A DNA stretch of 64,000 nt from Nocardia paucivorans NBRC 100373 (lineage in GTDB: Bacteria > Actinomycetota > Actinomycetes > Mycobacteriales > Mycobacteriaceae), in the NCBI RefSeq assembly GCF_000308675.1, contig NZ_BAGE01000001.1, positions 124,001-188,000 of the forward strand, read 5' to 3'. The notes below the pieces were generated by a model. It had not been told where the DNA came from. It saw nothing but the letters and a program-made list of their open reading frames with translations, and ran no database searches. Below, piece by piece: positions 1-63,571 of the stretch. A program made the position numbers and the translations under genes. Every line of letters begins with the position of its first letter. Position 1 is the first letter of the stretch.

Positions 1-1017
1 CTCGGTTTCGTGCTGTGGGGGGTGTCGGGTGCGCTGCGCTCCGGCACCTTCGAGGCATTGCTGTACGACGAGCTCACCGCATACGGCTCGACATGGGCCT
101 ATCCGCGCATCCTGGGATATGTCCGGGCCGCGACCGAGATCGCGGCCGTACTCGGCATCCTCGCGGCCACCCCGCTGTATCTGTGGGGCGGTTATCCGCT
201 CGTCGGTTGGGTCAGTGTCGTGGTCGCGGCCGGGCATACGGCCTTGGCCTGTGCGCTGCCCGCTGCGCCGAAAAGCGTTTCCGCGACGGAGGTGGACGAG
301 TTCGCCGACGCTGTCGCCGGGGGCCCGACCGAGTCGCGACCGGTCGACGCCGCCGGATCGGTCTCCCGCTATCTCGCGATGTTGCGCACGGGGGTGACGG
401 AGGCGGTGCGGATACGGGTGGTTCGGCGCGGGGCGGTGTTGGCTGCGTTATTGGCCGGTATCACCGCGTTCGACGAATATTTCGCCCTGCTCGCCGCGGA
501 GGCGGGTGTTGCGACTGCGGTGGTGCCGGTGCTGGTCGGGGTGACGGTGTTGGGTTCGTTGTTCGGGTCGAGCCTGGCGGGCCGCACGGAGGGGGTCGGC
601 GCCCGGGCCCTGGCTCTTGCGCTCGGTATCGGGGGTGTGTTGTTCCTGGTGGGCGCGGTCGTCGTGGGCCTGGCGGTGCGTCGGCCGGAGGCGGTGTATG
701 TGTGCGCCGGTCTCGGGTTCGCGGCCATGGCCGCCGCCTACGGTGTCGTCTACAACGCGGCCGTTATCGCCGAGGCCAGGTTGCAGGACGCCATCGAAGG
801 GCCGGCGCGGGCCACCGTCACCTCGGTCTCCGGCCTGCTGGAGGAGGTGGTCTCGTTGGTGGTGTTCGGGTTCGTCGCATCGGCGACGCTGTGGTTGTCG
901 ATGTCGTCGACCGTTGCCCTGCTCGGTATCGCGATTCTGGGCATTGCCGTAATGACCCGTTTCTGGCTGCCGCGTCGTGCGGAAACAGCAGGTCGGGACG
1001 AGGTCCGACTTGGTTGA
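1..1017 (+). CDS. MFS transporter, 5'-truncated by window edge
   Basis: The reading frame is open from base 1, so the true start lies upstream and the first helices are missing. About 338 residues remain. They show repeated hydrophobic spans (around residues 35-50, 60-75, 150-185, 200-240 and 285-320) and a long Ala-rich cytoplasmic loop near residues 90-125. This fits the later part of a 12-helix major facilitator transporter. No substrate can be assigned. The GTG at base 10 is just an internal valine codon. The stop codon at 1015-1017 lies inside the -35 element of the copper operon promoter, so this gene ends where that regulation begins. Confidence 0.75.
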   Translation, partial: LGFVLWGVSGALRSGTFEALLYDELTAYGSTWAYPRILGYVRAATEIAAVLGILAATPLYLWGGYPLVGWVSVVVAAGHTALACALPAAPKSVSATEVDEFADAVAGGPTESRPVDAAGSVSRYLAMLRTGVTEAVRIRVVRRGAVLAALLAGITAFDEYFALLAAEAGVATAVVPVLVGVTVLGSLFGSSLAGRTEGVGARALALALGIGGVLFLVGAVVVGLAVRRPEAVYVCAGLGFAAMAAAYGVVYNAAVIAEARLQDAIEGPARATVTSVSGLLEEVVSLVVFGFVASATLWLSMSSTVALLGIAILGIAVMTRFWLPRRAETAGRDEVRLG

Positions 1018-1041
1018 CAAAATACCCTAGGGGGGTATGGT
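1014..1041 (+). promoter_or_regulatory. Promoter with CsoR-like copper operator
   Basis: A perfect -35 hexamer TTGACA (1014-1019) is followed 16 nt later by TATGGT (1036-1041) as a plausible -10. Between and over them lies the inverted repeat ATACCC (1022-1027) / GGGTAT (1033-1038) with 5 nt between arms. CsoR-family copper repressors bind G/C-rich dyads of TACCC...GGGTA type. The site blocks the promoter spacer and precedes a copper ATPase operon, so copper-relieved repression is the natural inference. No csoR gene lies in the window. Confidence 0.6.
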
Positions 1042-1100
1042 AGGTCTTGAGGAGGCGGCACCGACGTCGCTGTGCAGGTCCACCCCGAATGGAGCGCCCG

Positions 1101-2054
1101 ATGAAAAACCCCCTGAAACTCGCCGGTTTCGCGGTCGGTCTGGCCGCGGTCTTCGGTATCGCGCTGGGGCTCGGTGCCCTGGCCGGTCCCGTCGACGAGG
1201 AGGCAAGCGCGCACGGAAACGGTGCGCACGAATCCACCCCATCCGAAGGCGGGGAGGTCGGTGGGCTGACCGATACCGCGGGTGGCTACACATTGACCCT
1301 GCTGGAGCCGACCGTGTCCCCGGGTTCGCGGGTGCCGCTGCGTTTCCGGATCTCGGACGCCGACGGGTCCCCCGTCACCCGCTATACGCCCAACCACGAG
1401 AAGGACCTGCACCTGATCGTGGTGCGGCGGGATATGGCCGTCTTCCGACACCTCCACCCGGTGCTCGACGAGCAGGGCACCTGGAGTGTGCCGGTGGATC
1501 TGAGCCGCGCCGGCGACTACCGCGTCTTCGCCGATTTCGTCACCGCCGACGGGCAACCGTTCACCCTGGGAGCGGATCTGCGTGTGACGGGCGACTACCA
1601 TCCACAACCACTGCCGAAGGCGGCCACAACCACAACCGTCGACGGGTATACCGTCACACTCGACGGCACACTCGTTCCGGGACGGGCCTCGACCGTGACG
1701 CTCACCGTTTCCCGTGACGGGGAACCCGTCACCGATCTGGAGCCCTACCTGGGGGCATACGGCCACTTGGTGGCGCTGCGGGCCACCGACCTCGGTTACC
1801 TCCACGTCCATCCGGAAGGACACCCCGGTGACGGAGTGACGAAGGCCGGACCCGATATCACCTTCGCGGTGACCGCGCCGAGCGCCGGTGACTACCGGAT
1901 GTTCCTCGATTTCCGGCACCGCGGGGTGGTCCGAACGGCCGAGTTCACCGTGGTCGCCGCACCGGCCACCCCGATGACCGGCGACCACCCCGAGCCTCCG
2001 GTGGCCGGCCCCGGACACACGCACCACCCGAGCCACTCGGGCCACGGACACTGA
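1101..2054 (+). CDS. His-rich exported protein of the copper operon
   Basis: This is a 317-aa protein with an N-terminal membrane/signal segment (about residues 8-28). Two related beta-rich domains follow (about 55-175 and 180-290). Each has a His cluster of similar type: one near HLIV...RHLHP, the other near GHLV...YLHVHPEG. The C-terminal tail is very rich in His ([13 protein letters not shown]). ATG 1101 is chosen because GGAG (1091-1094) sits 6 nt upstream; in-frame starts at 1047 and 1089 lack a comparable site. It is first in an operon with the copper ATPase 28 nt downstream and behind a CsoR-like operator. An extracytoplasmic copper-binding or chaperone role is inferred; I cannot name the family firmly. 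Confidence 0.8.
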
Positions 2055-2082
2055 CCGGCGGAAATACCGAACGGAGCACACC

Positions 2083-4326
2083 ATGACCACGGCTCAGCAG
2101 CACACCGGCCAGGTTGAACTGGTGATCGGTGGGATGACCTGCGCATCCTGCGCGAGTCGTATCGAGAAGAAATTGAACCGACTCGACGGCGTCGTGGCGA
2201 GCGTGAACTACGCGACGGAGAAGGCACGCGTCGCCTACACCGGTGATATCGCCCCGGAGGATCTGGTGGCCGTGGTGGAGCAGGCCGGCTACACCGCCAC
2301 CCTGCCGCAACCGGAGGCAACCGCCGCCGACACGTCAACGGAGCCGGACCCGACCGCATCGTTGCGAACCCGACTGCTGGTATCGGCGGTGCTGACGATT
2401 CCGGTGATCGCCATGGCCATGATCCCGGCATTGCAGTTCACCAACTGGCAGTGGCTGTCGCTCACTCTGGCCGCGCCGGTGGTGGTGTGGGGCGCGCTGC
2501 CATTCCACCGGGCGGCGTGGACCAATCTGCGGCATGGCACCGCGACCATGGACACGCTGGTCACCATGGGCACCCTGGCCGCTTTCGCCTGGTCGGTCTA
2601 CGCCCTGTTCTGGGGCACTGCCGGCATCCCCGGCATGACCCATCCGTTCGAGTTGACCATCGCCCGCATGGACGGCACCGGCAATATCTACCTGGAGGCC
2701 GCCGCGGGCGTCACCACCTTCCTGCTGGCCGGGCGCTACTTCGAAGCCCGGTCCAAGCGGCGGGCCGGCGCGGCACTGCGGGCGCTGCTGGAACTCGGCG
2801 CCAAGGAGGTCTCGGTCCTACGCGGTGGAACCGAACAGCGGATGCCGGTGGAGCAGCTCGAGGTCGGCGACCGTTTCGTGGTGCGTCCCGGCGAGAAGAT
2901 CGCCACCGACGGAGTGGTCGAGGACGGCTCCTCGGCCGTGGACGCGTCCATGCTGACCGGGGAATCCGTTCCGGTGGAGGTCGGCCCGGAGGACGCGGTG
3001 ATCGGGGCGACGGTCAATGTGGGCGGGCGGATCGTGGTGCGGGCCACGCGGATCGGCTCGGACACCCAGCTGGCGCAGATGGCGAAACTGGTGGAGGACG
3101 CCCAGACCGGTAAGGCGCAGGCACAGCGGCTGGCGGACCGTATCGCCGGGGTCTTCGTTCCGATCGTCATCACCTTGGCCGTGGCGACCCTCGGTTTCTG
3201 GCTCGGGACCGGGGGCTCGGTCGCGGCGGCGTTCACCGCGGCGGTGGCGGTGTTGATCATCGCCTGCCCGTGCGCGCTGGGTTTGGCCACCCCGACCGCG
3301 CTGATGGTCGGCACCGGCCGCGGCGCCCAGCTCGGCATCCTCATCAAGGGCCCCGAGGTCCTGGAATCGACCCGGCGGGTGGACACGGTGGTTTTGGACA
3401 AAACCGGCACCGTCACCACGGGCAAGATGACCCTGCACGAGGTGATCCCCGCCGCCGGTGAGCGGCCCGAGCACATCCTGAGACTGGCGGGAGCGTTGGA
3501 GAACGCCTCCGAGCACCCCGTCGCCCAGGCAATCGCCAAGGGCGCCCGGGAACGGGTGGGCGATCTCGAACCGGTCGAGGACTTCGCCAATGTCGCCGGA
3601 CTCGGCGTCCACGGTGTGGTGGACGGACACGCCGTGGTCGTCGGACGCACCGGGCTGCTCGCGGACCGGTCCCTGCACCCGGACACCGAATTGGAGCGGG
3701 CGATGCGCGCGGCGGAGGCCGAGGGACGCACCGCCGTGGCGGTCGGGTGGGATGGTCGGGTCCGTGGTGTTCTGGTCGTCTCCGACACGGTGAAACCGAC
3801 CTCCGCCGAAGCGGTGGCGCAGTTGCGTGGTCTCGGTCTGACACCGATCATGCTCACTGGCGACAACGAGGCGTCGGCGCGGGCGATCGCGGCCCAGGTC
3901 GGTATCGATGAGGTGATCGCGGAGGTGCTGCCCCAGGACAAGGTGGCCGTGATCGAACGCCTACAGCGGGAGGGCAAGGTCGTCGCCATGGTCGGCGACG
4001 GGGTCAACGACGCGGCCGCCCTGGCCCGCGCCGACCTGGGCCTGGCCATGGGCACCGGCACCGATATAGCCATCGAGGCGAGCGATCTGACCCTGGTCCG
4101 GGGCGATCTACGGGCCGCTGTCGATGCCATCCGCCTGTCCCGCCGCACCCTTGGAACCATCAAGGGCAATCTGTTCTGGGCCTTCGCCTACAACGTCGCC
4201 GCCATCCCCTTGGCCATGGCGGGTCTGCTGAATCCCATGCTGGCCGGGGCGGCCATGGCGTTCTCCTCGGTGTTCGTGGTCAGCAACAGTCTGCGACTGC
4301 GCCGCTTCCGCTCCACCGCGCGTTGA
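2083..4326 (+). CDS. copA: Copper-translocating P1B-type ATPase
   Basis: This 747-aa protein pumps copper out of the cytoplasm using ATP. It has an N-terminal heavy-metal-associated domain with GMTCASC (Cys20/Cys23), then transmembrane helices, the TGES actuator loop (LTGESVPVE), the intramembrane CPC metal site (Cys395-Pro-Cys397), the phosphorylation motif DKTGT (Asp439), an HP motif in the nucleotide domain (SEHPVAQ) and [10 protein letters not shown] near the end. CPC plus an MTCASC domain indicates a Cu(I) pump. GGAG (2073-2076) lies 6 nt before the ATG. It follows the His-rich gene in one operon, and a hairpin follows its stop. The call to the copper P1B-1 class is firm; the exact orthologue name (copA, ctpA or ctpV) is less so. 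Confidence 0.93.
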
Positions 4327-50594: not shown

Positions 50595-50611
50595 GGCTAG
50601 CATGGCTAGCC
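50595..50611 (+). promoter_or_regulatory. Palindrome over the start of the first emb gene
   Basis: GGCTAGC-ATG-GCTAGCC is a perfect dyad with 7-bp arms ending one base before the GTG start. TAGCAT (50598-50603) inside it fits a -10 element for a leaderless transcript. The core CTAGCATGGCTA (50597-50608) matches 11 of 12 bases of a site beside the TetR gene at 57787-57798. Confidence 0.5.
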
Positions 50612-53600
50612 GTGTCAGGAGTCGCCATAGCAGTACCGACGAAGACGTCGCCCGAACCCGTCACGGTCGCCCCCCGGGACTTTCGAGTGGCGCGCCTGCT
50701 CGCCGTGGTTTTCGGAATATTGGGGGCCTTGTTCGCACTGGCGACGCCGTTTCTGCCGGTCGTCCAGACAACGGCGACACTGAGTTGGCCGCAAAACGGC
50801 GCGCTCGGCAATGTGCAGGCGCCGTTGATGTCGCAGGTGCCGATCGAGCTCACGGCGAGCATCCCCTGCGCCGCGGTGCAGCAGCTACCTCCGCAGGGCG
50901 GCATGTTGCTCGCCACTGCACCTCCGCAGGGCGACCGGGCGGCGCTGGAGGCGCTGTTCGTGCGGGTCTCGCAGGACTCCGTCGATGTGGTGGATCGCAA
51001 TGCGGTGGTCGCCTCGGCTCCGCGTGCGGAGATGACCAACTGTTCGTCGATTGTCATCGACTCCGATATCGACCGAACCCAGGCCACGTTCCAGGGCCTG
51101 ACCAATGAGGCGGGCGATCCTCTGGAAGGGCAGCTGATCGGTGATCTGCGCCCGCAGGTGGTGGGTGTGTTCAGCGATCTGACGGGCGCAGTGCCCGAGG
51201 GTCTGACGTTCGACGCGACCATCGACACCCGGTTCAGCTCCAGCCCGACGGTGATCAAGCTCGTCGCGATGATCGCCGCGGTGTTGTGCACGCTTATCGC
51301 GCTGGGTGCGTTGGCCCGGCTGGATACCAGCGACGGTCGCGGTCATCGCCGGTTCTTCCCGGCGAACTGGTTCAAACCGACCTGGGCGGACGCCGCCGTC
51401 ATCGGCACCTTGGTGCTCTGGCACTTCATCGGTGCCAATACCTCCGACGACGGTTACATCCTGAACATGGTCCGGGTGGCCCCGGAGGCCGGCTATATGG
51501 CCAACTATTTCCGTTGGTACGGCGTCCCGGAGGCGCCGTTCGGCTGGTACTACTACGTGATCCAGCTGTTCGCAGAGGTCTCCACCGCCAGCCCGTGGGT
51601 GCGTCTACCGGCCCTGGCCTGCGGAATTCTGTGCTGGATGCTGATCAGCCGCGAGGTGGTGCCGCGACTGGGCCGTGGCCTGCGCGGTATGCGCGGTAGC
51701 CGCGCGGCGCAGCTGCGGTTCGGCAGTGTCCCGCTGTGGACCGGTGGTCTGGTCTTCCTGGCGTTCTGGCTGCCCTACGACAACGGTCTGCGTTCCGAGC
51801 CGATCGTGGCGCTGGGCGCTCTGCTGACCTGGGTGTCGATCGAACGGGCCATTGCCACCGCCCGCCTGCTGCCCGCCGCGGTCGCGGTGGTGGTGGCGGC
51901 ATTCACCCTGGCGGCGGCGCCTACCGGTCTGATGTGTGTGGCGGCGCTGCTGGCCGGTATCCGGCCGATCACCCGGCTGGTGGTGCGTCGGCATCGTGAA
52001 CACGGCACGGTGGCGTTGCTGGCGCCGCTCGCCGCGGCCGGGTTCCTGGTGCTGACCGTGGTGTTCTCCGATCAGACCTTCGCCGGGATCATGGAGGCCA
52101 ACCGTGTGCGGCAGCTGACCGGTCCGAACCTGGCCTGGTACGAGGACTACCTGCGCTACTACTACCTGTTCGTGGAAACCGTCGACGGTTCGCTGTCGCG
52201 TCGGTTCGCGTTCCTGGTGATGTTGCTGTGCCTGTTCACCACCATGCTGGTGTTGCTGCGCCGGCGTCGGGTGCCGGGTATCGCCGCCGCTCCGACCTGG
52301 CGGTTGATGGGCGTGGTCTACGGAACGATCTTCTTCATGATGTTCAACCCGACGAAGTGGACCCACCACTTCGGTGCATACGCCGGTATCGCCGGTTCTC
52401 TGGCGGCGGTGACGGCGGTGGCGGTGTCGGCGACGGCGCTGCGGGCGCGCAAGAATCGGGCGATCTTCCTGGCCGGTCTGTTGTTCGTCCTGGCCGTGGC
52501 GTTCTCCGGCATCAACGGGTACTGGTATGTGTCCAGCTACGGTGTTCCGTGGTTCGACAAGCGGGTGTCGTTGCACGGATACCAGTCCAATACCGCGATT
52601 CTGATCCTGTTCGGTGTGGCCCTGGCCCTGGTGGCCTGGCATTCGCTGCGAGAGGGCTACGCCAAACCGCCGAGTTCGTCGCGTACCACGCGCGGTCGAC
52701 GGATCCGGAAATTCGCCGCCATCCCATTGACGCTGGTGGCCGCGGCCATGGTGTTGTTCGAGGTGCTGTCACTGGCGAAAGGCGCCTATTCGCAGTACCC
52801 GGCGTATTCGCTGGCCCGCTCGAACACCGACGCGCTCACCGGCAAGAGCTGCGGTCTGGCCAATGATGTGCTGGTGGAGACCGATCCGAACGCCGGGCTG
52901 TTGCAGCCGATCATCGACCCGGCGAATCCGCCCACCAATCCGAACGATCCGCTCGCCGGTGTCGATCCGGTGGGCTTCGATCCCAATGGGGTGCCCGATG
53001 ATCTGTCCGCCGACGCCGTCGAGGTGAAGCCGGGTACCGGCAATACCTCCAGCCAATCGGTGGGCGCGGCGTTCGCCGAAGGCCAGAGCGCCGGCACCGG
53101 CGGTGGGCAGGGTGCACTCGGGGTGAACGGCAGTACGGTTGCGCTGCCGTTCGGCCTGGACCCGGCCACCACTCCGGTGCTGGGCAGCTACCAGAACGGG
53201 GTACAGCAGCCGGCGCATCTCACCTCCAGCTGGTACGCCCTGCCCGAACGTTCGCCGGATGCCCCGCTGATCGTGATCAGCGCGGCGGGCCGCATTCTGT
53301 CCTACGACGACACCGGCGCCATGCAGTACGGCCAGTCGCTCGTGGTGGAATACGGTAAACGGCAGTCCGACGGTACGGTCACCGCGTTGGGCACCTACCT
53401 GCCGCGCGATATCGGTCCGGCTCCGTCGTGGCGGAATCTGCGGGTGCCGTTGGACGAGATCGCTGCCGATGCCGACGCGGTACGTATCGTTGCCAACGAT
53501 CCGATTCTGATCGGCGACCAGTGGCTGGCCTTCACCCCGCCGCGGGTGCCGACCCTGCAGACGATCAACAGCTACCTCGGTTCCGAGCAGCCGATCCTGC

Positions 53601-53938
53601 TGGACTGGGCGGTGGGTCTGCAGTTCCCCTGCCAGCGGCCGTTCTACCACCGCAACGGTGTGGCCGAGGTGCCCCGCTACCGCATCCTGCCCGACCGGCC
53701 ACTGGCGGTGAGCTCCACCAATACCTGGCAGGCCCAGGAGTTCGGTGGACCGCTCGGCTTCTCGCAGATGCTGGCGAAATCGGTCACCGTCCCCACTTAC
53801 CTGCGGGACGACTGGGCCCGGGACTGGGGCTCGTTGGAACGTTACGAGCAGTATTACGAGGCCACCCCGGCGAAGCTGGAAACCGGAACCGCCACGCGCT
53901 CCGGTTTCTGGGACCCGGGCCGGTTGCGGGTGTTCTGA
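50612..53938 (+). CDS. emb: Arabinosyltransferase of the EmbABC family (copy 1)
   Basis: This 1108-aa GT-C membrane enzyme polymerises arabinan from decaprenyl-phospho-arabinose. A first helix (about residues 28-50) is followed by a periplasmic jelly-roll domain, helices from about 215, and the catalytic loop [13 protein letters not shown] (Asp279-Asp280). Further motifs are [34 protein letters not shown] (about 577-591) and a C-terminal carbohydrate-binding region from about 850 ([18 protein letters not shown]). A Ser/Gly-rich linker lies near 815-850. Ethambutol acts on this family; ILxM after DDGY keeps the Met equivalent to EmbB Met306. It looks closest to EmbB/EmbC; a single letter cannot be fixed here. 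Confidence 0.94.
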
Positions 53939-53948
53939 GCCGCGATAC

Positions 53949-53986
53949 GGTTCCGCGGATCGCCGGCCCGGCCGGTCCGCGGAACC
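53949..53986. terminator. First hairpin between the converging emb genes
   Basis: The outer 11-bp stem GGTTCCGCGGA (53949-53959) and TCCGCGGAACC (53976-53986) continues after a 3-nt bulge into an inner CCGGCC/GGCCGG stem. It starts 10 nt after the stop of the plus-strand emb gene. Confidence 0.75.
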
Positions 53987-54020
53987 GGTCGAAGGGCCAC
54001 GAAACCGAAGCGGTACGAAA

Positions 54021-54070
54021 CACTGTGGGCCGCCGCCCGGACAGGTTGTCCGAGGCGGCGGCCCACAGTG
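54021..54070. terminator. Second, 23-bp hairpin between the converging emb genes
   Basis: Arms 54021-54043 and 54047-54070 form a 23-bp stem with a single bulged A (54053) and a 3-nt loop (GGT). It is the longest stem seen in the window. It would terminate transcripts coming from both emb genes. Confidence 0.85.
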
Positions 54071-54133
54071 CCGAAGTGGTGGTGCGGAGTTCGGCTGGTC
54101 GAGCCGGCTGCCCCGCGTTCGGTGTTCGGTGCG

Positions 54134-54331
54134 TCAGACGCGTGCCATCCGCATATTGAGTTCGCGGCGCAGCACTTCCGGATCGGGTAGCCGGTTGAGC
54201 ACCCGCAGTACCGTAGGACGCAGCTCGCGCTGCTCTTCCTCGGTGAGTAGTCCGACGAGATCGCGCAGGTCCATGTCATCGAGTTCCGCCGTCATGCAGC
54301 ACAGGTTACGAGCGGATCCGGATTCCGTCAT
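54134..54331 (-). CDS. Small acidic helical protein downstream of an emb gene
   Basis: This 65-aa reading frame has GGGAAAGGG just 6-7 nt before ATG 54331, one of the better ribosome sites in the area. The protein is mostly predicted helix: DDMDLRDLVGLLTEEEQRELRP and VLRVLNRLPDPEVLRRELNMRM. There is no signal or membrane segment, and no homologue that I recognise. It lies 83 nt after the minus-strand emb gene, on the same strand, and ends before the double hairpin, so it is probably co-transcribed with that gene. Whether it is translated is not certain. Confidence 0.6.
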   Translation of the reverse strand: MTESGSARNLCCMTAELDDMDLRDLVGLLTEEEQRELRPTVLRVLNRLPDPEVLRRELNMRMARV

Positions 54332-54414
54332 CCGACACCCTTTCCCTCACCTGGGAGGGTTTCAAACTGTGAGGAAACCCACAACGGTCAGAGGCGGTTG
54401 CCCGCCCGCCCGAT

Positions 54415-57400
54415 TCACTGGACCCGGATCGGGTCGTCGGTCTCCCATCCCATGCGAGTTCGCACCTGCACCGTCGGATCCGCGGTCCGGGCGTCGGGCA
54501 CATACGGAGTGAACCGTTCCAACGAGCCCCAGTCGCGACCCCAGTCGTCGCGCAGATAAGCGGGAACGGTCTCGGCCCGCAACAGCAGTTCCGTCCAGCC
54601 CAGCGGGCCGCCGCCGATATGGTCCTGCCAGGCATTGGAGGCGTCGGAGCCGACCCGGTCGGGCAGAATGCGGTAGCGGGGCACCTCGGCGATACCGTCG
54701 TGGTGGTCGAACGGGCGCTGGCAGGGGAAAGCGAGTCCGACATGCCAGTCCAACAGCACCGGATCGGTGTGTCCCACTACGGAATCGAGGGTGGCCAGGC
54801 GTGGTAGCCGGGGCGGGGTGACCGCCAACCACTGCCGTTCGGTGATGTCGTTGTCCACCGCCACCAGTCGTACCGCGTTCACCTCGTGGGGTAGCCGGTC
54901 CAGCGGCACCCGCAGGTTCCGCCAGGACGGCGACGGGCCGATATCGAGCGGGGACACCGAGCCCAATACCTGCACGGACCCATCCGCGGCGCGGGTGCCG
55001 TACTCCAACAGCAGTTCCTGGCCATAGGTGACCACACCGTCGGAGTCGACCGACCGGATCCGTCCGGCGGCGGTGATGGCGAGCACCCGATAGGCCGGAT
55101 CGGCGCGCATGCTGTCGGACAGGTCCAGGCGATACCACTGCGAGGTGAGTTTCGCCTGCTGCTGTTCGCCCTGCCGATAGCTGCCGAGTACGGGGGTGCG
55201 GGCCGGATCGAGGCCGAACGGTAGTGCCACCGTGGACCCGTTGATTCCCGGTTCTGCGGTGGTACCGCCGCCGGTGCCCGCGCCGGTGGTGTCGGTGGTC
55301 TTGTTCTCGGTATCCGATTCGACCGAGTTCGCGCTTCCGCTCACCGTTTCCTCGGCGTCGGCGGTCAGATCGCGCGCCACCCCATTGGGGGTGAAACCCA
55401 CCGTCTGCGCATCCGGATCGGTGGAGATGAGACCGTCCGCCGGTGCGCCCTCGTAGGGGAGCAGCAGGGAGTCGGCGGTATCGGTTTCCACCAGGACGTC
55501 GTCGGCGAGTCCGCACGGATCGCCGGCCAAGGAGCGCAGATTCGATTTGCCCACCGAATACGCCGGATACTGGCCCACCGCTGCCTTGGCCAGTGAGGCC
55601 ACCTCGAACAGCACCAGCAGCGCGGCGGCCACGGTCAGCGGGGCCGAGGCGTAACGGACCGTCCGGGACGGGGAGCCGGCACGTGAGCGGGACGTGGTCG
55701 ATAATCCGGCGCGATAGTGCAGCCAGAGCGCGACCAACAGCGCCACTCCGCTGAGACCGAGGAACAGGGTGGAAAAGCCCTTACCCGCCACCAGCGGCGC
55801 CTTGTCCCACCACGGGACACCATAGCTGGAGACATACCACCAGCCATTGGAACCGGTGAAAGTGATCGCCAGCAGGAACAGCACCGCCGCGGCGAACAAC
55901 GCCCGATTGCGTGGGGCGCGAATACCGTTGGTGCTCACCGCCACCGCGGCCAGCGCGGCCAGCGACCCGGCCAGACCCGCGTACACGCCGAAATGATGGG
56001 TCCACTTCGTCGGGGTGAACATCATCAGCAGCAGCGAGGCGAACACGATGCCGAGAATGCGCACCGACGGGCCGCGGGAGGTCCCCGGGATCCGTCCCTT
56101 GCGCAGCACCTGCAATACGCATACCAGCAGGCACAGCAGCATGAGCAGCACGCCGAACCGGCGGGCCAGTGAACCGTCCGGCGAGAGCATGAGCAGCGAA
56201 TCCCAGCGGGTGCGCTCGTCGAACCACGCCACGTTCGGGCCGACGATTGTGCGCACCCGGGTGGCCTCCAGCACCGTGGACAAGGTCTGGTCGGCGAAGA
56301 TCACCACCAGTACCAGCGTCCCGGCCGCCAGTCCGGGAGCGAGCAGCGATGCATAGCGCAGCACCGCGCCCGGAGCGGGCCCGCCGGCCCGTTTCACGAT
56401 GATCTGCAATACCGGACGGGATCCGGCGATCAGCGCCGCGATACAGATGAGCCCGGTGGGGCCGGCGGCCAGCGAGAAGGCCGCGACGAGCACCGCAACG
56501 GCCGCGGGCAGCAGCCGGGCGGTGGCGATGGCACGTTCGATGGAGCACCAGGTCAACAGCGCGCCCGCGGCGATGAGCGGTTCCGGGCGCAGACCGTTGT
56601 CGTAGGGGAGCCAGAAGGTGAGGAACACCAGTCCGGCGGTCCACAGCGCCACCTTGTTGTCGCGTATCCGGGCGCCCAGCCGGGGCAGCACCTCGCGGCT
56701 GATCACCATCCAGCAGACGATTCCCGCGAGCAAGGTTGGTAGCCGGATCCACGGGCTGGCGTCGGAGATGCGTGACATCCAGCCCAATACCTCGTACGAC
56801 CAGCCGAACGGTGCCTCCGGCACCCCGAACCAGCGGTAGTAGTTGGCCAGGTATCCGGAGCGCTCGACGGTGCGCGCCATGCTCAGGATGTAGCCGTCGT
56901 CGGAGGTGTTGGCGCCGAAGAGATGCCAGCCGACCAGGGTGCCGAGGATTGTGATATCGGCGAGTCCGAACCGCCACCAGTGCGCGGGCAGGAAGCGCCG
57001 TGCCCGTCGGCCGTCGGTGACATCGAGCAGGTGCAGGGCGATCAGGGCGATCACCGTGCACAGCGCCGCCGCGAGTATGGCGGCCAGTTTCAGCGGGGTG
57101 GGTGAGGAGGTGAACCGGGAATCGAGGTCGGCGTGCAACCGGATACCGTCGAGCCGGTCGGCGTCCAGATCGGTGAACACCCCGACCAGTTGCGGTCGGA
57201 TATCCCGATCCACCTGGGCGGCGAACGATGTTCCGTCCGACCGCTGCGCGCCGACGAGCTCCGCCGTGGTGGCCGCGGCCGTCGAGGAGACGGTGAGGGA
57301 TTCGCAGTTCGCGAGCTCATCGCGGCTCGCCGAGAGCAATGGCACATCGCGCAGCAACACCGAGAGGGTGTCGTCGTGGACCGCCACCACCAGACCGCGC

Positions 57401-57681
57401 GACGAGGCCTGTCCCGAATCGACCGGGACGGTCGAGACCAGGGTGCCGGTGGTTTCCCGTACGACCTGGCACGGCACCGTGAGATCCATTCGCAGCGGCT
57501 GGTAACTCACCAGCGGCGCCTCGACACTGGTCGCCCCCGCCTGGGGCCAGTCCAGGGCGGCATGGTCCTGCCGCACCGGGAGCAGCGGCGTCAGCAGTGC
57601 CAGCACGAATCCGAGAAGCCCGGAGACGAGGGCGATCAGACGGATGCGGGTCGATGCTCGGGGGGTTCGTTCCGGTCGCAC
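54415..57681 (-). CDS. emb: Arabinosyltransferase of the EmbABC family (copy 2)
   Basis: This 1088-aa paralogue of copy 1 has the same layout: first helix (about residues 12-32), periplasmic domain, catalytic loop [13 protein letters not shown] (Asp261-Asp262), [34 protein letters not shown] and a C-terminal LLDWHVGLAFPCQRPFDH region. The linker before the C-terminal domain is Thr/Ser/Glu-rich rather than Gly-rich. GTG 57681 is the start. It is transcribed towards copy 1 and is divergent from a TetR regulator. It lies nearer aftA, the neighbour of embC in M. tuberculosis, but its subtype is unresolved. Confidence 0.94.
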   Translation of the reverse strand: MRPERTPRASTRIRLIALVSGLLGFVLALLTPLLPVRQDHAALDWPQAGATSVEAPLVSYQPLRMDLTVPCQVVRETTGTLVSTVPVDSGQASSRGLVVAVHDDTLSVLLRDVPLLSASRDELANCESLTVSSTAAATTAELVGAQRSDGTSFAAQVDRDIRPQLVGVFTDLDADRLDGIRLHADLDSRFTSSPTPLKLAAILAAALCTVIALIALHLLDVTDGRRARRFLPAHWWRFGLADITILGTLVGWHLFGANTSDDGYILSMARTVERSGYLANYYRWFGVPEAPFGWSYEVLGWMSRISDASPWIRLPTLLAGIVCWMVISREVLPRLGARIRDNKVALWTAGLVFLTFWLPYDNGLRPEPLIAAGALLTWCSIERAIATARLLPAAVAVLVAAFSLAAGPTGLICIAALIAGSRPVLQIIVKRAGGPAPGAVLRYASLLAPGLAAGTLVLVVIFADQTLSTVLEATRVRTIVGPNVAWFDERTRWDSLLMLSPDGSLARRFGVLLMLLCLLVCVLQVLRKGRIPGTSRGPSVRILGIVFASLLLMMFTPTKWTHHFGVYAGLAGSLAALAAVAVSTNGIRAPRNRALFAAAVLFLLAITFTGSNGWWYVSSYGVPWWDKAPLVAGKGFSTLFLGLSGVALLVALWLHYRAGLSTTSRSRAGSPSRTVRYASAPLTVAAALLVLFEVASLAKAAVGQYPAYSVGKSNLRSLAGDPCGLADDVLVETDTADSLLLPYEGAPADGLISTDPDAQTVGFTPNGVARDLTADAEETVSGSANSVESDTENKTTDTTGAGTGGGTTAEPGINGSTVALPFGLDPARTPVLGSYRQGEQQQAKLTSQWYRLDLSDSMRADPAYRVLAITAAGRIRSVDSDGVVTYGQELLLEYGTRAADGSVQVLGSVSPLDIGPSPSWRNLRVPLDRLPHEVNAVRLVAVDNDITERQWLAVTPPRLPRLATLDSVVGHTDPVLLDWHVGLAFPCQRPFDHHDGIAEVPRYRILPDRVGSDASNAWQDHIGGGPLGWTELLLRAETVPAYLRDDWGRDWGSLERFTPYVPDARTADPTVQVRTRMGWETDDPIRVQ

Positions 57682-57733
57682 GGGGAGACTCTATGACCTG
57701 CCTCCTCCCCGCCGAGCGCCGCCTCCGGGGCGC

Positions 57734-57757
57734 GCGTATCCGCCGGGGGCGTATCCG
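57734..57757. repeat. Short direct repeat in the emb-tetR intergenic region
   Basis: GCGTATCCG occurs at 57734-57742 and 57749-57757, giving a 15-bp period. It lies about 53 nt upstream of the emb copy 2 start and could be a second control element. Confidence 0.3.
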
Positions 57758-57786
57758 GCCGGGAAGCTTTATCTGCGACAGGATAT

Positions 57787-57802
57787 CTAGCATTGCTATG
57801 AT
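57787..57802. promoter_or_regulatory. Candidate TetR operator over a leaderless tetR promoter
   Basis: TAGCATTGCTA (57788-57798) is a palindrome with 5-bp arms and a 1-nt centre. It overlaps TATGAT (57797-57802), a good -10 that ends 6 nt before ATG 57809, with a GCGACA -35-like hexamer 16 nt further upstream. The 12-mer CTAGCATTGCTA recurs with one change at the start of emb copy 1. Confidence 0.5.
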
Positions 57803-57808
57803 CCCGGC

Positions 57809-58402
57809 ATGTCCGCCATCAGCGAACGCCGCGAACGGGAACGCGCGCAACGCCATCGGCTGATCGTCACGGCCGCACGCGAACTCGCTGAGACCGAGGG
57901 CTGGGAGGCGGTGACGACACGGCGGCTGGCCGAACGGGTGGAATACAGCCAACCGGTTCTGTACAGCCACTTCGACGGCAAGGACGCCATTGTGAACGCC
58001 GTCGCCATGGACGGGTTCGACGAACTCGCCGCACACCTGCGCCACGCCCGACGGGCCGTCGCCGAACCCGAGCAGGCCCTGCGTGCCATCTGCCGCGCCT
58101 ACCTGGAATTCGCGGCCGAGCGACCCGCCCTCTACCGGGCCATGTTCATCCTGCCCATCGACTCGAAGTTCGCGAGCGCCGACCCACCGCCACCGCTACG
58201 GGCCGCTTTTGCCGAGTTCGTCGCCTGCTTCCCCCCGGACGACGAGCGACGCGAGGCGGCCGCCGAAGTCCTCTGGAGCGCCTTGCACGGCATGGTCGTC
58301 CTACCGGCCTGCGGCCGTATACCCCCGGACGAGCAGGAGGAACGGCTCGACTTCCTCGTCACCCGGATCGCGGGTGCCCGGCCGGTATCGACCGCACCCT
58401 AG
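57809..58402 (+). CDS. TetR-family regulator divergent from an emb gene
   Basis: This 197-aa protein has an N-terminal helix-turn-helix (about residues 15-62; TAARELAETEGWEAVTTRRLAERVEYSQPVLYSHFDGKDAIV), the TetR signature. The C-terminal ligand domain has an RPALYRAMF helix and a WSALHGMVVL segment similar to the TetR_C WHG family. The effector is unknown. ATG 57809 has no ribosome site and lies right after a -10, so translation is probably leaderless. It is divergent from emb copy 2 (127 nt apart), so control of emb and of itself is the leading hypothesis. Confidence 0.88.
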   Translation: MSAISERRERERAQRHRLIVTAARELAETEGWEAVTTRRLAERVEYSQPVLYSHFDGKDAIVNAVAMDGFDELAAHLRHARRAVAEPEQALRAICRAYLEFAAERPALYRAMFILPIDSKFASADPPPPLRAAFAEFVACFPPDDERREAAAEVLWSALHGMVVLPACGRIPPDEQEERLDFLVTRIAGARPVSTAP

Positions 58403-58433: not shown

Positions 58434-60431
58434 CTACCGATCCCGCACCACGACGAGGGTGAACGGCCCGATATCCGTGCTGGTGAAACGCGGGTCTGCG
58501 AATATCTTCCGCGGGAAGGCGACGGTGAATCGCCGCACGTTCGGATCATTCGGGTAGACGTCCTCGGTGAGCCGCAAGGTGTAGTTCTCCCCGCTACGAC
58601 GGAACAGGAACGCGTCCGGGGCCCGCCAGGGAGCCGCGGCCATGGCGTCGAGCAGTTGCTGGGGCGTGTCGAGTTCGCTCCACTCCTCGATGGTGGTGGT
58701 CCGGGCCGCGAAATCGGCGAGCGGATTGGCGTAGTGCGAGGTCATCCCCTGGAAACCGAAGTAGGGGTAGAAGGCCAGGAAGGTGGTGTCGCCGGTGAGC
58801 ACCACGGTATCGGAGCGTCGACGACCGGTCTGTTCCCGCAACGTGGTGTCGATCTCGCGGTAGTGCACCTCGGCCGCCGGATCCCGGCGATCGGCGCGGA
58901 CACCGTCGCCGTCGGTATCGGTGTAGGCGGTGGTGATCTCCGCGGCCAATACCCGAGGGATGTCCTGGGTGAAGGCGAGCGCGCCGATGGCAGCCACCGT
59001 CACCGCGGCCAACCGGAACCGAGCCGGTTCGTTGAAAGCCCGGTAGACCGCGCGGGCCCCTTCCACGAAGCCGAAACCGCCCGCCGCGGCCAGCAACACC
59101 AGCAGGATGGGTTCCAGCCGGAAGGACAGCAGCGTGGTCCCCGCCGCCGTGGCCGCCATGGACAGCAGCGACCACAGATAAACCGCCAGCACCCCGATAC
59201 CGAGTGATTGGGCCCGCCGGGACGACCCGGCCCGCAGCACCAGCCACAGCGTGCCGACCAGGCACAGCCCACCCAGCAGCGACAGGTTCGTCATCGGCAT
59301 AGGCAGTTGGGTGCCCGCTTCCGGCAGATAGTGGAAGGCGGTCCCGGACCGTGCGCCGACGCCCTCGAGCAACCGCAGCAGGAACGGCAGGTAGACGATG
59401 AGGCCGATCGCCCCCGCGACGACACCCATGAGGATCAGTCGTGGCAGCGGGGTGAGCGCGGCCCGGCGCGCACTGCCCACCGGTTCCCCACCGGTGCGGC
59501 GCCGCACCCGTTCGGCGACGCGATGCGCGTGTACGGCGAGTCCGGCGGCGATCACTGCCATCAGCACGATGGTGAACACCGCGAAGGCGAAGTACAGGGT
59601 GTAACAGACGGCCGCGAGCCCGAGGAACAGGCCGGTGCCGAGCGCGGCGCCCCAACCCCGTGCCGTCGCACCCGAATCCCGCGACGAGGCATCCCGTGCG
59701 TATTCGGCGGGTCGATGCAGGGCGCCCCAGGCCATGACCAGAACCGGCGGCAGCAGCACCGCGATGACCGCGCCGTAGGCCTCGGGCGAGGCATAGGCCA
59801 CCGTGACGGCGGTCACGGCCGCCGCGACCCCCACCGCCCAGTCCGCCCGCACCAGTTGCGACCACAGCACCAGCGCGATCACCGCGGCCACCGCGATCGA
59901 ACCGATCGCGTACGGCTTGAACGCTTCCCAGCCGTCCATGCCGAGCAGGTTGGCGAACCGTCCACCGACCCAGAACCAGCCCGCCGGGTAGAACGGCGGC
60001 AGATCGGCATAGGTCATATCGCGCAGTGCCGGGCTGTCGGTGAGTCGGGTGAGGTATTCGGTGCGGAACTCCTGGTCCACCGAAACCCCGAACAGATACA
60101 GCTTGGTGGCGGCCAGCGGCATGCCGAGGGTCACCGTGACGAAGGCGGCGATACCCGTCCAGGACAGCAGTTTCGCCATCCACCGTGCCCGTCGCAACCG
60201 CAGCAGCGCGATTGCGCCCGCCACCATGACGGCGGATACCACCTGCCCCACCGTGGTGAGCGCCCGCGTGACATTCGACGAATTGAAGGCGGGCCAATCC
60301 ACCTGTGAAAAGGCGACCAGCCCAATGGCGGTGACCACCGTGGCGACCACTGCCGCCGCCAACGCCTCACCGAGAGCGGTCCCGGCCCGGCGCACCAGCG
60401 GTCCCGGTCGCGCCCTGTCGTTCGTCGTCAT
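58434..60431 (-). CDS. aftA: Galactan arabinofuranosyltransferase AftA
   Basis: This 665-aa GT-C membrane enzyme puts the first arabinose on galactan, priming Emb action. About eleven helices are seen. The first periplasmic loop has QEFRTEYLTRLTD and the catalytic-type acidic segment before LPPFYPAGWFWVGGR (about residues 145-160). The soluble C-terminal domain (about 480-665) ends VVVRDR. ATG 60431 (MTTNDR) is preferred, with GGAGG 11 nt upstream; ATG 60455 is possible. Rv3792 has 643 residues. It converges with tetR, 31 nt apart, and lies after the dprE1-dprE2 terminator. Confidence 0.93.
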   Translation of the reverse strand: MTTNDRARPGPLVRRAGTALGEALAAAVVATVVTAIGLVAFSQVDWPAFNSSNVTRALTTVGQVVSAVMVAGAIALLRLRRARWMAKLLSWTGIAAFVTVTLGMPLAATKLYLFGVSVDQEFRTEYLTRLTDSPALRDMTYADLPPFYPAGWFWVGGRFANLLGMDGWEAFKPYAIGSIAVAAVIALVLWSQLVRADWAVGVAAAVTAVTVAYASPEAYGAVIAVLLPPVLVMAWGALHRPAEYARDASSRDSGATARGWGAALGTGLFLGLAAVCYTLYFAFAVFTIVLMAVIAAGLAVHAHRVAERVRRRTGGEPVGSARRAALTPLPRLILMGVVAGAIGLIVYLPFLLRLLEGVGARSGTAFHYLPEAGTQLPMPMTNLSLLGGLCLVGTLWLVLRAGSSRRAQSLGIGVLAVYLWSLLSMAATAAGTTLLSFRLEPILLVLLAAAGGFGFVEGARAVYRAFNEPARFRLAAVTVAAIGALAFTQDIPRVLAAEITTAYTDTDGDGVRADRRDPAAEVHYREIDTTLREQTGRRRSDTVVLTGDTTFLAFYPYFGFQGMTSHYANPLADFAARTTTIEEWSELDTPQQLLDAMAAAPWRAPDAFLFRRSGENYTLRLTEDVYPNDPNVRRFTVAFPRKIFADPRFTSTDIGPFTLVVVRDR

Positions 60432-60609
60432 CGGCGTGCCAACCTCCGGCTCCATCCATACGCCTGCACGTCCGGGCCAGCCTAATGGAGTTTCGGCGCC
60501 ATGCCCTCGCGCCGGATCGGTTGTGCCGTATCGGAAAGATGGGGCGCAACGACCACATCACGACGTCGAGTCCGACGGTCCTTCGTGCACATCGACTCGT
60601 TCGAGCTCG

Positions 60610-60660: not shown

Positions 60661-61422
60661 TCAGATGGGCAGCCTGCGGAAGATCGGGCGCGGAATATGG
60701 CGCAGGATCATCATCACGAAGCGGAACGCGCCGGGCGCCCAGACGATCTCCTTGCCTTTCTGCGATGCCGCGACCGCCAGTGCCGCGACCTCTTCCTTGT
60801 CGACGGTCAGCGGCGCTTCCTTGACATGCGCGCTGAATCGGGTGCGCACCTGTCCGGGGCGCACGACCAGGACCCGCACCCCGTGTGGCCGCAGGGCCTC
60901 ACCGAGGCCGAGGTAGAACCCGTCCAGACCGGCCTTGGTGGAGCCGTACACGAAATTGGAACGGCGCACCCGCTCACCGGCCACCGACGACATGGTGATG
61001 ATGCGGCCGTAGCCCTGGGCCTTCATCTTCTCGCCGAGCAGCACGCCCACCGAGACACCGGCCGTGTAGTTGACGCCGGCGACGCGCACTGCCTTGGCCT
61101 GGTTCTGCCATAGTTCCTCGGCGTCGCCGTCCAGCGCGAAGGCCACGATCGCGACATCGATATCGCCGCGGTCCCAGGCGGCCTCGATCACCTTGGGGTG
61201 GCCGTCGGTATCGAGTGCGTCGAAATCGATTACGTCGACCTCGCTCGCACCGGCGGCCTTCATCTGCTCGACCGCGCTCTCCCGCAGCGGATCATTCGGC
61301 AAGGCGGCCAGCACGATCCGGGCGGGACTCTTCTTCAAGTACTCGGCGCAGATCGCCAAACCGATTTCGGAGGTTCCGCCGAGCAGCAGAATGGTCTGCG
61401 GATTGCCAACGGCATTGATCAC
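60661..61422 (-). CDS. dprE2: Decaprenylphosphoryl-2-keto-ribose reductase DprE2
   Basis: This 253-aa short-chain dehydrogenase reduces the keto intermediate made by DprE1 to decaprenyl-phospho-arabinose with NADH. The cofactor motif is [15 protein letters not shown] (about residues 9-23). The catalytic Ser and Tyr-Lys are in [24 protein letters not shown] (Tyr about 155, Lys about 159). GTG 61422 (VINAVGNPQ) has GGAG 5 nt upstream and overlaps the dprE1 stop as GTGA. The frame upstream to 61497 is not part of the family. Rv3791 has 254 residues. Confidence 0.95.
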
Positions 61423-62918
61423 GAAAGCTCCAGCCTTCTCGCTATATCGGACATGAAAACGCCTGTGGGATCGACACTGCGGCGAACCTTGATCCACTCC
61501 TCGATCCGTGGATACATCCGGTGGAAGGTCTCGGCGGTCGTGCGCGAGTCCTTACCGGTGTACAGCCGGCCGCCGAATTCCAGCACCCGCTGATCCAATT
61601 CGGTGACGAACTCGTTGAGTCCGGGTGCGATGGGGAAGTCGACGCAGATATTCCAACCCGGCATCGGGAAGCTCAACGGCGCCTGGTTACCGGGGCCGAA
61701 GAGTTTGAAGACGTTCAGGAAGGAATAGAACCCGGACTTCTGAATGTCGATGATGATGCGCTTGAACTCGTCCACCGACTCCGGCGGCACCACGAACTGG
61801 TACTGCAGGAAGCCGTTGGAACCGTAGCCGCGGTTCCATTCACCCAGCATGTCCAGAGGGTGATAGAACTGCGTCAGGTTCTGCACCTTGCCGCGATAGG
61901 TGCCCGATTTGCGGTACCAGAGCTCGCCGATCGGGGTGAAGGTGTATTTGTTGGCCAGCCCGTTGGGGAAGATATCCGGCAGGGTGAAGAAGGTTTTGCC
62001 GTTGAACCGCAGGGGGTCCTTGCGCAGTTTCTTCGGCAGCTCGTCCAGCTTCGCCAGATTGCCGCGGGAGATGGCCGCGCGGCCCAGTTTCGGCATCGGG
62101 CTGATCGCGTCGAACCAGGCCGAGCTGTATTCGTAACGGTCTTCGGAGCCGTCGCTGTGGAAGGCGATGGTCTCGTCCAGATCGGCGGTCACATCGCCGT
62201 CGGCGATGAAGTACGCGGTCTCCGTCGGGGTCATCTCGATGGTCGCGCGCAGGATGATCCCGGTCAGACCACAGCCGCCGATGGTCGCCCAGAACAGTTT
62301 GGCGTTCTTCTTGGGGGTGATGTGCTGGACTTCGCCGTCTGCGGTGAGCAGGTCGATCGAGCGCACGTGGTTGCCGAAGCTACCCGCGCTGTGGTGGTTC
62401 TTACCGTGGATATCGGAGCCGATGGCGCCGCCGACGGTGACCTGCCGGGTGCCGGGCAGCACCGGCACCCACAGGCCGAACGGTAGCGCGGCCTTCATCA
62501 GCTGGTCCAGGTTCACACCCGCGTCGACATCCACCAGCCGGGTGTCCCGGTCGATGCGGTGGATCTTGTTCAGCGCGGTCATGTCGACGACCAGCCCGCC
62601 GGCGTTCTGGGCATTGTCGCCATAGGAACGACCCAGACCGCGGGCGATGATGCCGCGGCGTAGATGGGCGGGCTTACTGTCGTTGTCCTCGGCGACCATG
62701 GCGACGGCCTTGGCGATCACTTCCGGATCGCTGGTCGAGAGCACTTCTGCGGAGGTTGGTGCGGTGCGACCCCACCCGGTCAGCGTCCGGGTCCGCGTCG
62801 GCAGCGCCGCGGCGGGCTGCGGGGACGCTGTCGCGCCCTCGGAGGCCTGCGTATCGCGGTCGTCGTTGCCTGCGGTCCCCATGGCACCGGTCGTGGTGGT
62901 CGGAGCTTTCGTGGACAT
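61419..62918 (-). CDS. dprE1: Decaprenylphosphoryl-ribose 2'-oxidase DprE1
   Basis: This FAD-dependent oxidase is 499 aa from ATG 62918. The PP-loop region [16 protein letters not shown] (about residues 89-104) and [15 protein letters not shown], containing the FAD-contacting His (about 171), are intact. [11 protein letters not shown] carries Cys425, equivalent to Cys387 of the M. tuberculosis enzyme, the covalent site for benzothiazinones. The N-terminus has about 40 extra Thr/Ala/Pro-rich residues before LTGWGRTAP. Starts at 62936 and 62957 are possible; the last sits just after a TTGTCG-17-TACTGG promoter-like pair. It forms an operon with dprE2. Confidence 0.95.
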
Positions 62919-62997
62919 CGGCATAGAGGCTACAGGCATCACCGGAATCCGGTTCATCGTGCGGACCCCAGTAGTCGTGCGCGAGGTCGTCGACAAG

Positions 62998-63003
62998 TAC
63001 ATT
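62998..63003 (+). promoter_or_regulatory. Probable -10 of a leaderless gtrA transcript
   Basis: TACATT fits TANNNT and ends 7 nt before the gtrA ATG at 63011, with no ribosome site between. The matching -35 region is weak. Confidence 0.35.
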
Positions 63004-63010
63004 TCGGTCG

Positions 63011-63571
63011 ATGCCCGCACACAGCAACGCCACCCCCCGGCCACCGGAGTCCGCCGGAGCGTCTTCCGAGTCTTCCGAGCAGGTCCGCTCCGCGCAGGAA
63101 CCGGTTGCCGTCGAACCGCAGGCCGGACCGCAGGCGCTTCCGGTCGAGATACCGCTGTCGGATGAGCCGGGCGGAACCCAGGTCGATCTGAAAACGCAGA
63201 TCATCCGGTTCGTGCTGACCGGTGGGCTGTCCGCGGTGGTGGACTTCGGGCTCTACGTCCTGCTGCTGAAGGTGGTGGGTCTGCCGGTCGACCCGGCCAA
63301 GGCCATAGGTTTTATCGCCGGGACCACGACCGCCTATCTGATCAACCGCCGTTGGACGTTCCAGGCGCCGCCCAGTCGGGCCCGCTTCATCGCGGTGGTG
63401 GTGCTGTATGCGGTGACCTTCGCGGTGCAGGTGGGTCTCAACGGGCTGGTGTATGGGGCCCTGGACGAGGAGCTGTGGTGGCGGGTGCCGCTGGCCTTCG
63501 TGGTGGCCCAGGGCACGGCGACGGTGATCAATTTCGTGGTGCAGCGGGTAGTGATCTTCAAACTCCGCTGA
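63011..63571 (+). CDS. GtrA-family membrane protein (Rv3789-like)
   Basis: This 186-aa protein has a disordered Pro/Ser/Glu-rich N-terminus (about residues 1-62). Four helices of the GtrA fold follow, starting [20 protein letters not shown] (about 68-87), then [19 protein letters not shown], a third helix, and [19 protein letters not shown]. GtrA proteins help move or anchor polyprenyl-linked sugars; Rv3789 has been linked to decaprenyl-phospho-arabinose and AftA. Rv3789 is only 121 residues, so the N-terminal extension is unusual. It is divergent from dprE1, unlike in M. tuberculosis. Confidence 0.88.

Follow-up and report, generated by a model that had tools for sequence, protein, structure and literature searches.

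Two nearly identical words in a 64,000-nucleotide stretch of the Nocardia paucivorans NBRC 100373 genome (contig NZ_BAGE01000001.1; the whole of this stretch is referred to as the window), one at the start of the arabinosyltransferase gene emb1 and the other at the promoter of a gene for a TetR-family regulator (tetR), probably have separate origins. The tetR word is likely to be an operator through which the regulator represses its own gene; the emb1 word appears to be a −10 region turned into a near-match by two changes seen in this species only, and is likely unused by TetR. The emb family is described as the ethambutol target in mycobacteria (PMC2610374), and an earlier note on this DNA had read the two words as one element common to both emb loci and proposed a TetR-emb regulon. 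The features concerned are as follows.

50595–50611, plus strand: inverted repeat GGCTAGC-ATG-GCTAGCC, directly 5′ of the emb1 start codon and on the emb1 −10 region; it holds the 12-mer at 50597–50608
50598–50603, plus strand: predicted leaderless −10 of emb1, TAGCAT (TANNNT class), 8 nt 5′ of the GTG
50612–53938, plus strand: emb1, arabinosyltransferase, GTG start; Pfam Arabino_trans_N, Arabinose_trans and Arabino_trans_C
54415–57681, minus strand: emb2, arabinosyltransferase, convergent with emb1; the same three Pfam domains as emb1
57688–57693, minus strand: predicted leaderless −10 of emb2, TAGAGT, compared with 7 relatives
57787–57799, plus strand: likely TetR operator CTAGC-ATT-GCTAT; consensus CTAGC-RNY-GCTAG, with the final G to T change found in 7/102 proximal sites
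57797–57802, plus strand: predicted leaderless −10 of tetR, TATGAT, 6 nt 5′ of the ATG, overlapping the operator 3′ half
57809–58402, plus strand: tetR, TetR-family regulator between emb2 and aftA; Pfam TetR_N and TetR_C_33

The pair of words is real and rare. CTAGCATGGCTA (50597–50608, emb1 side) and CTAGCATTGCTA (57787–57798, tetR side) differ at one base and lie exactly where the earlier note had placed them, and its observation that the window holds no third copy extends to the genome: the 6,001,070 bases contain the pattern CTAGCATNGCTA at two places, both in the window, compared with six places for a control pattern read backwards. The highest exact count in 100 shuffles of the window is zero. 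At up to two mismatches, 8 matches are found in the window vs 4.56 expected, and 12 of the 100 shuffles reach 8, so that the unusual part is the near-exact pair only. As a word, CTAGCATNGCTA is not enriched (it is present in 55/118 Nocardia genomes, and the backwards pattern is similarly common or commoner in many genomes), and the evidence thus rests on its place. Each word contains the dyad attributed to it, stronger than had been stated at emb1, where GGCTAGC-ATG-GCTAGCC (50595–50611) has perfect 7-bp arms, and weaker at tetR, where the dyad is TAGC-ATT-GCTA and the next outward pair, C/T, does not match. There are three TAGC-N3-GCTA sites genome-wide, at emb1, at tetR and at C71:101193, vs 460 for the backwards-read pattern, a control of different composition; TAGCRNYGCTA has a single place in the genome, the tetR site at 57787–57799. 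Two parts of the earlier description need amendment. Both words do overlap predicted −10 elements, but with different parts, the emb1 word with its 5′ half and the tetR word with its 3′ half and beyond; and only the first lies at an emb gene, the second being at the tetR promoter, where 106–118 bp separate it from the start of emb2 (57681) and about 94 bp from the predicted emb2 −10 (57688–57693).

The word on the tetR side is an instance of a motif conserved 5′ of tetR relatives. We compared 109 tetR loci, 29 from Nocardia and 80 from named genomes (80 kept of 100 confirmed; some Nocardia genomes are counted twice), defining a site as CTAGC-N3-GCTAG with no more than one arm mismatch and a proximal site as one no more than 40 bp from the start inferred for tetR. 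A proximal site is present in 102 of these loci, starting at −19 to −22 in 94; a distal site, further upstream, is present in 89, and both in 84. The seven loci lacking a proximal site, which we retained in the 109 as misses, are five alphaproteobacterial loci with a distal site only (L090, L092, L093, L096 and L099) and two with no site (L091 and L111); in the five, the distal site keeps the form CTAGC-N3-GCTA(G/T) and the proximal place is occupied by CTAGCGTTGACA or a similar sequence. The motif centre is RNY in 193/198 sites of the tetR relatives, and in a weight matrix built from the 198, with which sites having no more than one arm mismatch were scored, the window tetR site reaches 20.9 bits, above 66 of them. 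The operator and the promoter overlap: TANNNT occupies operator positions 11–16 in 99 of the 102 proximal sites. The regulators are also alike, the stretch YSQPVLY being identical in 109/109 relatives and in the window TetR, and its position suggests that it is the recognition helix. Both domains of the window TetR score above cut-off (TetR_N 51.2 bits, TetR_C_33 58.6 bits); matches to solved structures (13 sequences, best E 1.4e-10) were not used.

A site of this kind has been footprinted. LodR1, a TetR-family protein of Streptomyces sp. FXJ1.172, is described as protecting a palindrome of 5′-CTAGCGTTGC-3′ and as repressing the divergent lodAB; its site is close to where transcription of a divergent gene, named DUF1772 in Table 1 of that paper, is predicted to begin (PMC10100954). 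The window TetR shares its family with LodR1, and CTAGCGTTGC fits the CTAGC-RNY-GC of the window motif; the corresponding trait, a palindrome with CTAGC-RNY-GC at tetR's own promoter, is present at 57787–57799. This likeness is drawn from family and site, and there is one clear difference, in that LodR1 has a divergent lodAB target in the account given of it (PMC10100954), whereas the window tetR lacks a partner of this kind and sits among arabinan genes. In the literature, a search with TetR and CTAGCGTTGC gave the LodR1 paper as the sole relevant one, judged by title; motif strings gave papers that were unrelated by title, and no paper was found on DUF4267, alone or with TetR. Conservation, together with the analogy to a tested protein, makes it likely that the tetR-side word is the TetR's own operator, in agreement with the TetR-binding element that the earlier note had suggested at tetR. 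The window TetR would bind at 57787–57799 and block RNA polymerase at the leaderless tetR promoter, and most likely represses itself alone.

The emb1-side word has a different setting. Leaderless promoters with TANNNT are described for Mycobacterium tuberculosis (PMC3898074), and emb1, emb2 and tetR in the window resemble these in having TANNNT 6–8 nt 5′ of the start codon, leaderless transcription here being a prediction. We aligned the emb1 starts of 117 Nocardia (30 from loci including the window and 87 fetched; G013 was excluded, as its emb1 match is cut by a contig end and starts only at residue 173). TANNNT lies 6–9 nt 5′ of the emb1 start in 116 of the 117, the exception being L164, with the hexamers TAGCAT (60), TACGAT (18), TAACAT (18), TACCAT (16), TAGACT (3) and TACTAT (1). 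The emb1 word is thus predicted to be built on the leaderless −10 of emb1. Among the 48 promoters combining TAGCAT with an 8-nt spacer, 31 have CTAGCAT and 28 have CTAGCATTGC, but the full palindrome is present in one, and that one, the window's own, is the only case in the 117. GCTAGCATTGCCAATC and GCTAGCATTGCCAACC are the most frequent forms, with 11 each; the window has GCTAGCATGGCTAGCC, which differs from GCTAGCATTGCCAACC at three bases, two of which complete the palindrome, and the counterparts of the window promoter in relatives include the form CTAGCATTGCCAACC.

These comparisons go against the shared emb regulon of the earlier note, which had named absence of conservation in relatives as what would tell against it; we regard such a regulon as possible but unlikely. 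Furthermore, none of the CTAGCATNGCTA places listed, compared by eye with emb1 positions, is at emb1 except the window's, and the 30 loci fetched from the CTAGCATNGCTA search include tetR in 13 and emb in none; taken with the single palindrome in 117, these results led us to reject the idea that this TetR generally targets emb across Nocardia. The longer form TAGCATNGCTAGNNRTG is found in 2/150 Nocardia genomes, that of the window and G082, where it lies about 139 kb from the listed emb1.

The emb2 promoters provide a further view of the −10. In the seven relatives inspected, the predicted leaderless −10 is within CTAGCAT in four, is TAGCAT in a fifth, and is TAGAGT as in the window in the other two; CTAGCAT is a frequent form of the emb −10 among these relatives, and none of the seven emb2 stretches has a tetR match. 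It might be supposed that TAGCAT is simply the common −10 of both promoters, but this is ruled out, as motif position 7 is free at tetR (C40 G24 A20 T18) and TANNNT lies there at positions 11–16. At emb1 it lies at motif positions 2–7, and with these differing registers the likeness of the two words is not that of one promoter element in a single register. Most likely, then, the emb1 word is an ordinary emb −10 region that has drifted, or been drawn, into near-identity with the operator.

How the two words came to be neighbours is a separate matter, since tetR seems to be a newcomer to the emb cluster, which continues beyond it with:

58434–60455, minus strand: aftA, arabinofuranosyltransferase; Pfam AftA_N and AftA_C
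61419–63044, minus strand: dprE1, beyond aftA

A tetR relative is present in 100/118 Nocardia genomes at E ≤ 1e-20, the window counted, but the window protein is only 48–59% identical to the usual Nocardia form, vs 71–81% to a scattered set including Saccharothrix, Micromonospora, Actinoplanes, Actinokineospora, Nonomuraea, N. brevicatena and N. shimofusensis. A rapidly built tree of 80 TetR proteins places it in a 16-row set of mixed actinobacterial families (Shimodaira–Hasegawa-like approximate likelihood-ratio support 97), with N. shimofusensis as the sister row (85). This patchy spread of close relatives suggests horizontal transfer of tetR at some point; the 61 plasmid records with a tetR relative are every one below 60% identity. 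We found no emb, aftA or dprE1 match in the 80 named tetR loci (up to 10 kb on each side, less at contig ends) or in the 29 genus loci (up to 1.5 kb on each side). In the 99 other Nocardia in which both genes could be placed, tetR and emb1 share a contig in 25, none within 30 kb and the closest at 165,831 bp; the remaining 74 pairs are on different contigs and argue weakly. With tetR away from emb in the relatives inspected, its presence in the window emb cluster would be an insertion. We note that five genomes (G089, G031, G051, G109 and G097) carry tetR and emb1 on one contig with 166–198 kb between them; this spacing varies rather little and may point to a settled position of tetR in that subgroup.

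The interval between aftA and emb2 itself varies. The two genes adjoin in G075 and G033 (about 159 and about 233 bp apart), with no tetR, and are separated by a gap of about 2 kb in G099, G044, G113, G020 and G047. The gap in L269 (about 1000–3463), L271, L272 and L273 contains a frame of about 620–700 amino acids, membrane-protein-like in L269 and L273; G075 and G033 have no room for such a frame, and the window has tetR in that place.

The usual partner of the regulator is also missing here. Divergent frames were extracted from 15 loci, some of the extractions being implausible and left out, and four hand-picked divergent partners are DUF4267 proteins; in N. brevicatena (L071) the divergent frame 5′ of tetR encodes a shorter, odd protein, so that the DUF4267 gene is perhaps broken there, or misread. 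In the window, tetR would have entered the emb cluster without this partner and the partner's operator: the divergent neighbour is emb2, 127 bp from start to start, and there is no second operator between tetR and emb2 at no more than one mismatch, and no partner gene with an operator of its own.

This arrangement raises the question of whether emb2 has become the target. Control of a divergent neighbour is frequent among TetR proteins. LodR1 illustrates it (PMC10100954), and TetR bound at 57787–57799 could act on emb2 from about 100 bp upstream, for example through divergent-promoter supercoiling or contact with the polymerase. The proximity and divergence of the two genes speak for this, but the second upstream site that accompanies the proximal one in 84/109 relatives is lacking here, and a leaderless −10 is predicted for emb2 itself, as it is in relatives with no tetR; we therefore consider an effect on emb2 quite improbable.

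More weight attaches to the possibility that emb1 itself was captured, that is, that tetR landed by emb2 and two point mutations (a C-to-T and an A-to-G change against the relatives' common form) then made an operator of the emb1 −10 region, with TetR repressing both itself and emb1; this would be a young arabinan regulon specific to the species. Several observations favor this and count against separate origins of the words. Seven places in the genome match CTAGC-N3-GCTAG with no more than one mismatch, and the sole perfect one is at emb1, which with tetR also accounts for two of the three TAGC-N3-GCTA sites. The emb1 site scores 15.7 bits, above 9 of the 198 sites of tetR relatives and above the five other non-tetR sites in the genome (5.2–13.5 bits), the common emb1 form of relatives scoring 9.8 bits; emb1 being the best after tetR among the seven places, chance alone is not a comfortable answer. 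Of the 47 remaining promoters that combine TAGCAT with an 8-nt spacer, none has both completing letters, and the palindrome occurs in the one examined genome that has tetR inside the emb cluster. Finally, the genome has a single DUF4267 gene (C72:131667), the expected native target, and no operator is found in the upstream stretch read before it, which leaves the regulator with no obvious job beyond itself.

Other features of the emb1 site are difficult to reconcile with capture. A full operator, CTAGC-RNY-GCTAG, is not present: the arms are perfect, but the ATG centre breaks the RNY rule kept by 193/198 sites, a G as third centre base being found in 1/198 operators, so that the site is best described as a borderline operator. 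Its −10 is placed unlike that of the tetR promoters, the palindrome is not conserved elsewhere, and the word pair was chosen post hoc. In addition, emb1 of G006 has both completing letters behind another −10 (TACCAT-CCATAGCC-GTG), showing that they can arise outside the window species; G006 has no tetR match at E ≤ 1e-20. We thus think it unlikely that emb1 was captured, and similarly doubtful that the emb1 site is functional as an operator. The preferred reading remains that of separate origins, by which emb1 and emb2, the latter starting 106 bp away, would be transcribed independently of TetR.

Two further considerations bear on emb regulation. The emb1 palindrome could instead be independent of TetR, serving a different regulator or forming a nucleic-acid structure at the start codon; its perfect 7-bp arms at the start codon are suggestive of this, but it is absent from all the other emb1 promoters of the 117, and we give the idea very little credence. 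EmbR is, to our knowledge, not a TetR protein. It does resemble the proposed regulon in being a dedicated regulator of emb transcription, in Mycobacterium tuberculosis, where it is reported to regulate embABC and to be positively regulated by phosphorylation (PMC9480834, citing Sharma et al. 2006), by PknH according to the title of a paper cited there (PMC9480834).

Operators of this type are also found away from tetR. In several Nocardia (L035, L036, L041, L045, L047, L055 and L060, near 1501) the type CTAGCATCGCTAG precedes a gene for a protein of about 158–165 amino acids resembling a small membrane protein, and these loci have no tetR relative within about 1.5 kb; such genes may be controlled in trans by the same regulator. 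We dropped DUF1772 as a name for them, as neither of the two proteins tried has a Pfam family; the window genome has one PF08592 match. Lastly, CTAGGATAGCTAG at G000:C76:99204–99216 (L064), with one arm mismatch, is a few bases 5′ of a GTG frame of at least 498 amino acids.

These comparisons provide a likely operator consensus, CTAGC-RNY-GCTAG, for a wide group of TetR proteins that are often paired with DUF4267, and they illustrate that a leaderless −10 (TAGCAT) can pass for half of such an operator. There is a small chance that a horizontally acquired TetR, its native DUF4267 partner lost, did capture emb1 through two point mutations, in which event one Nocardia lineage would have a ligand-responsive switch on an arabinosyltransferase; if true, the emb gene would be a case in which the emergence of an operator through two mutations could be put to a direct test.

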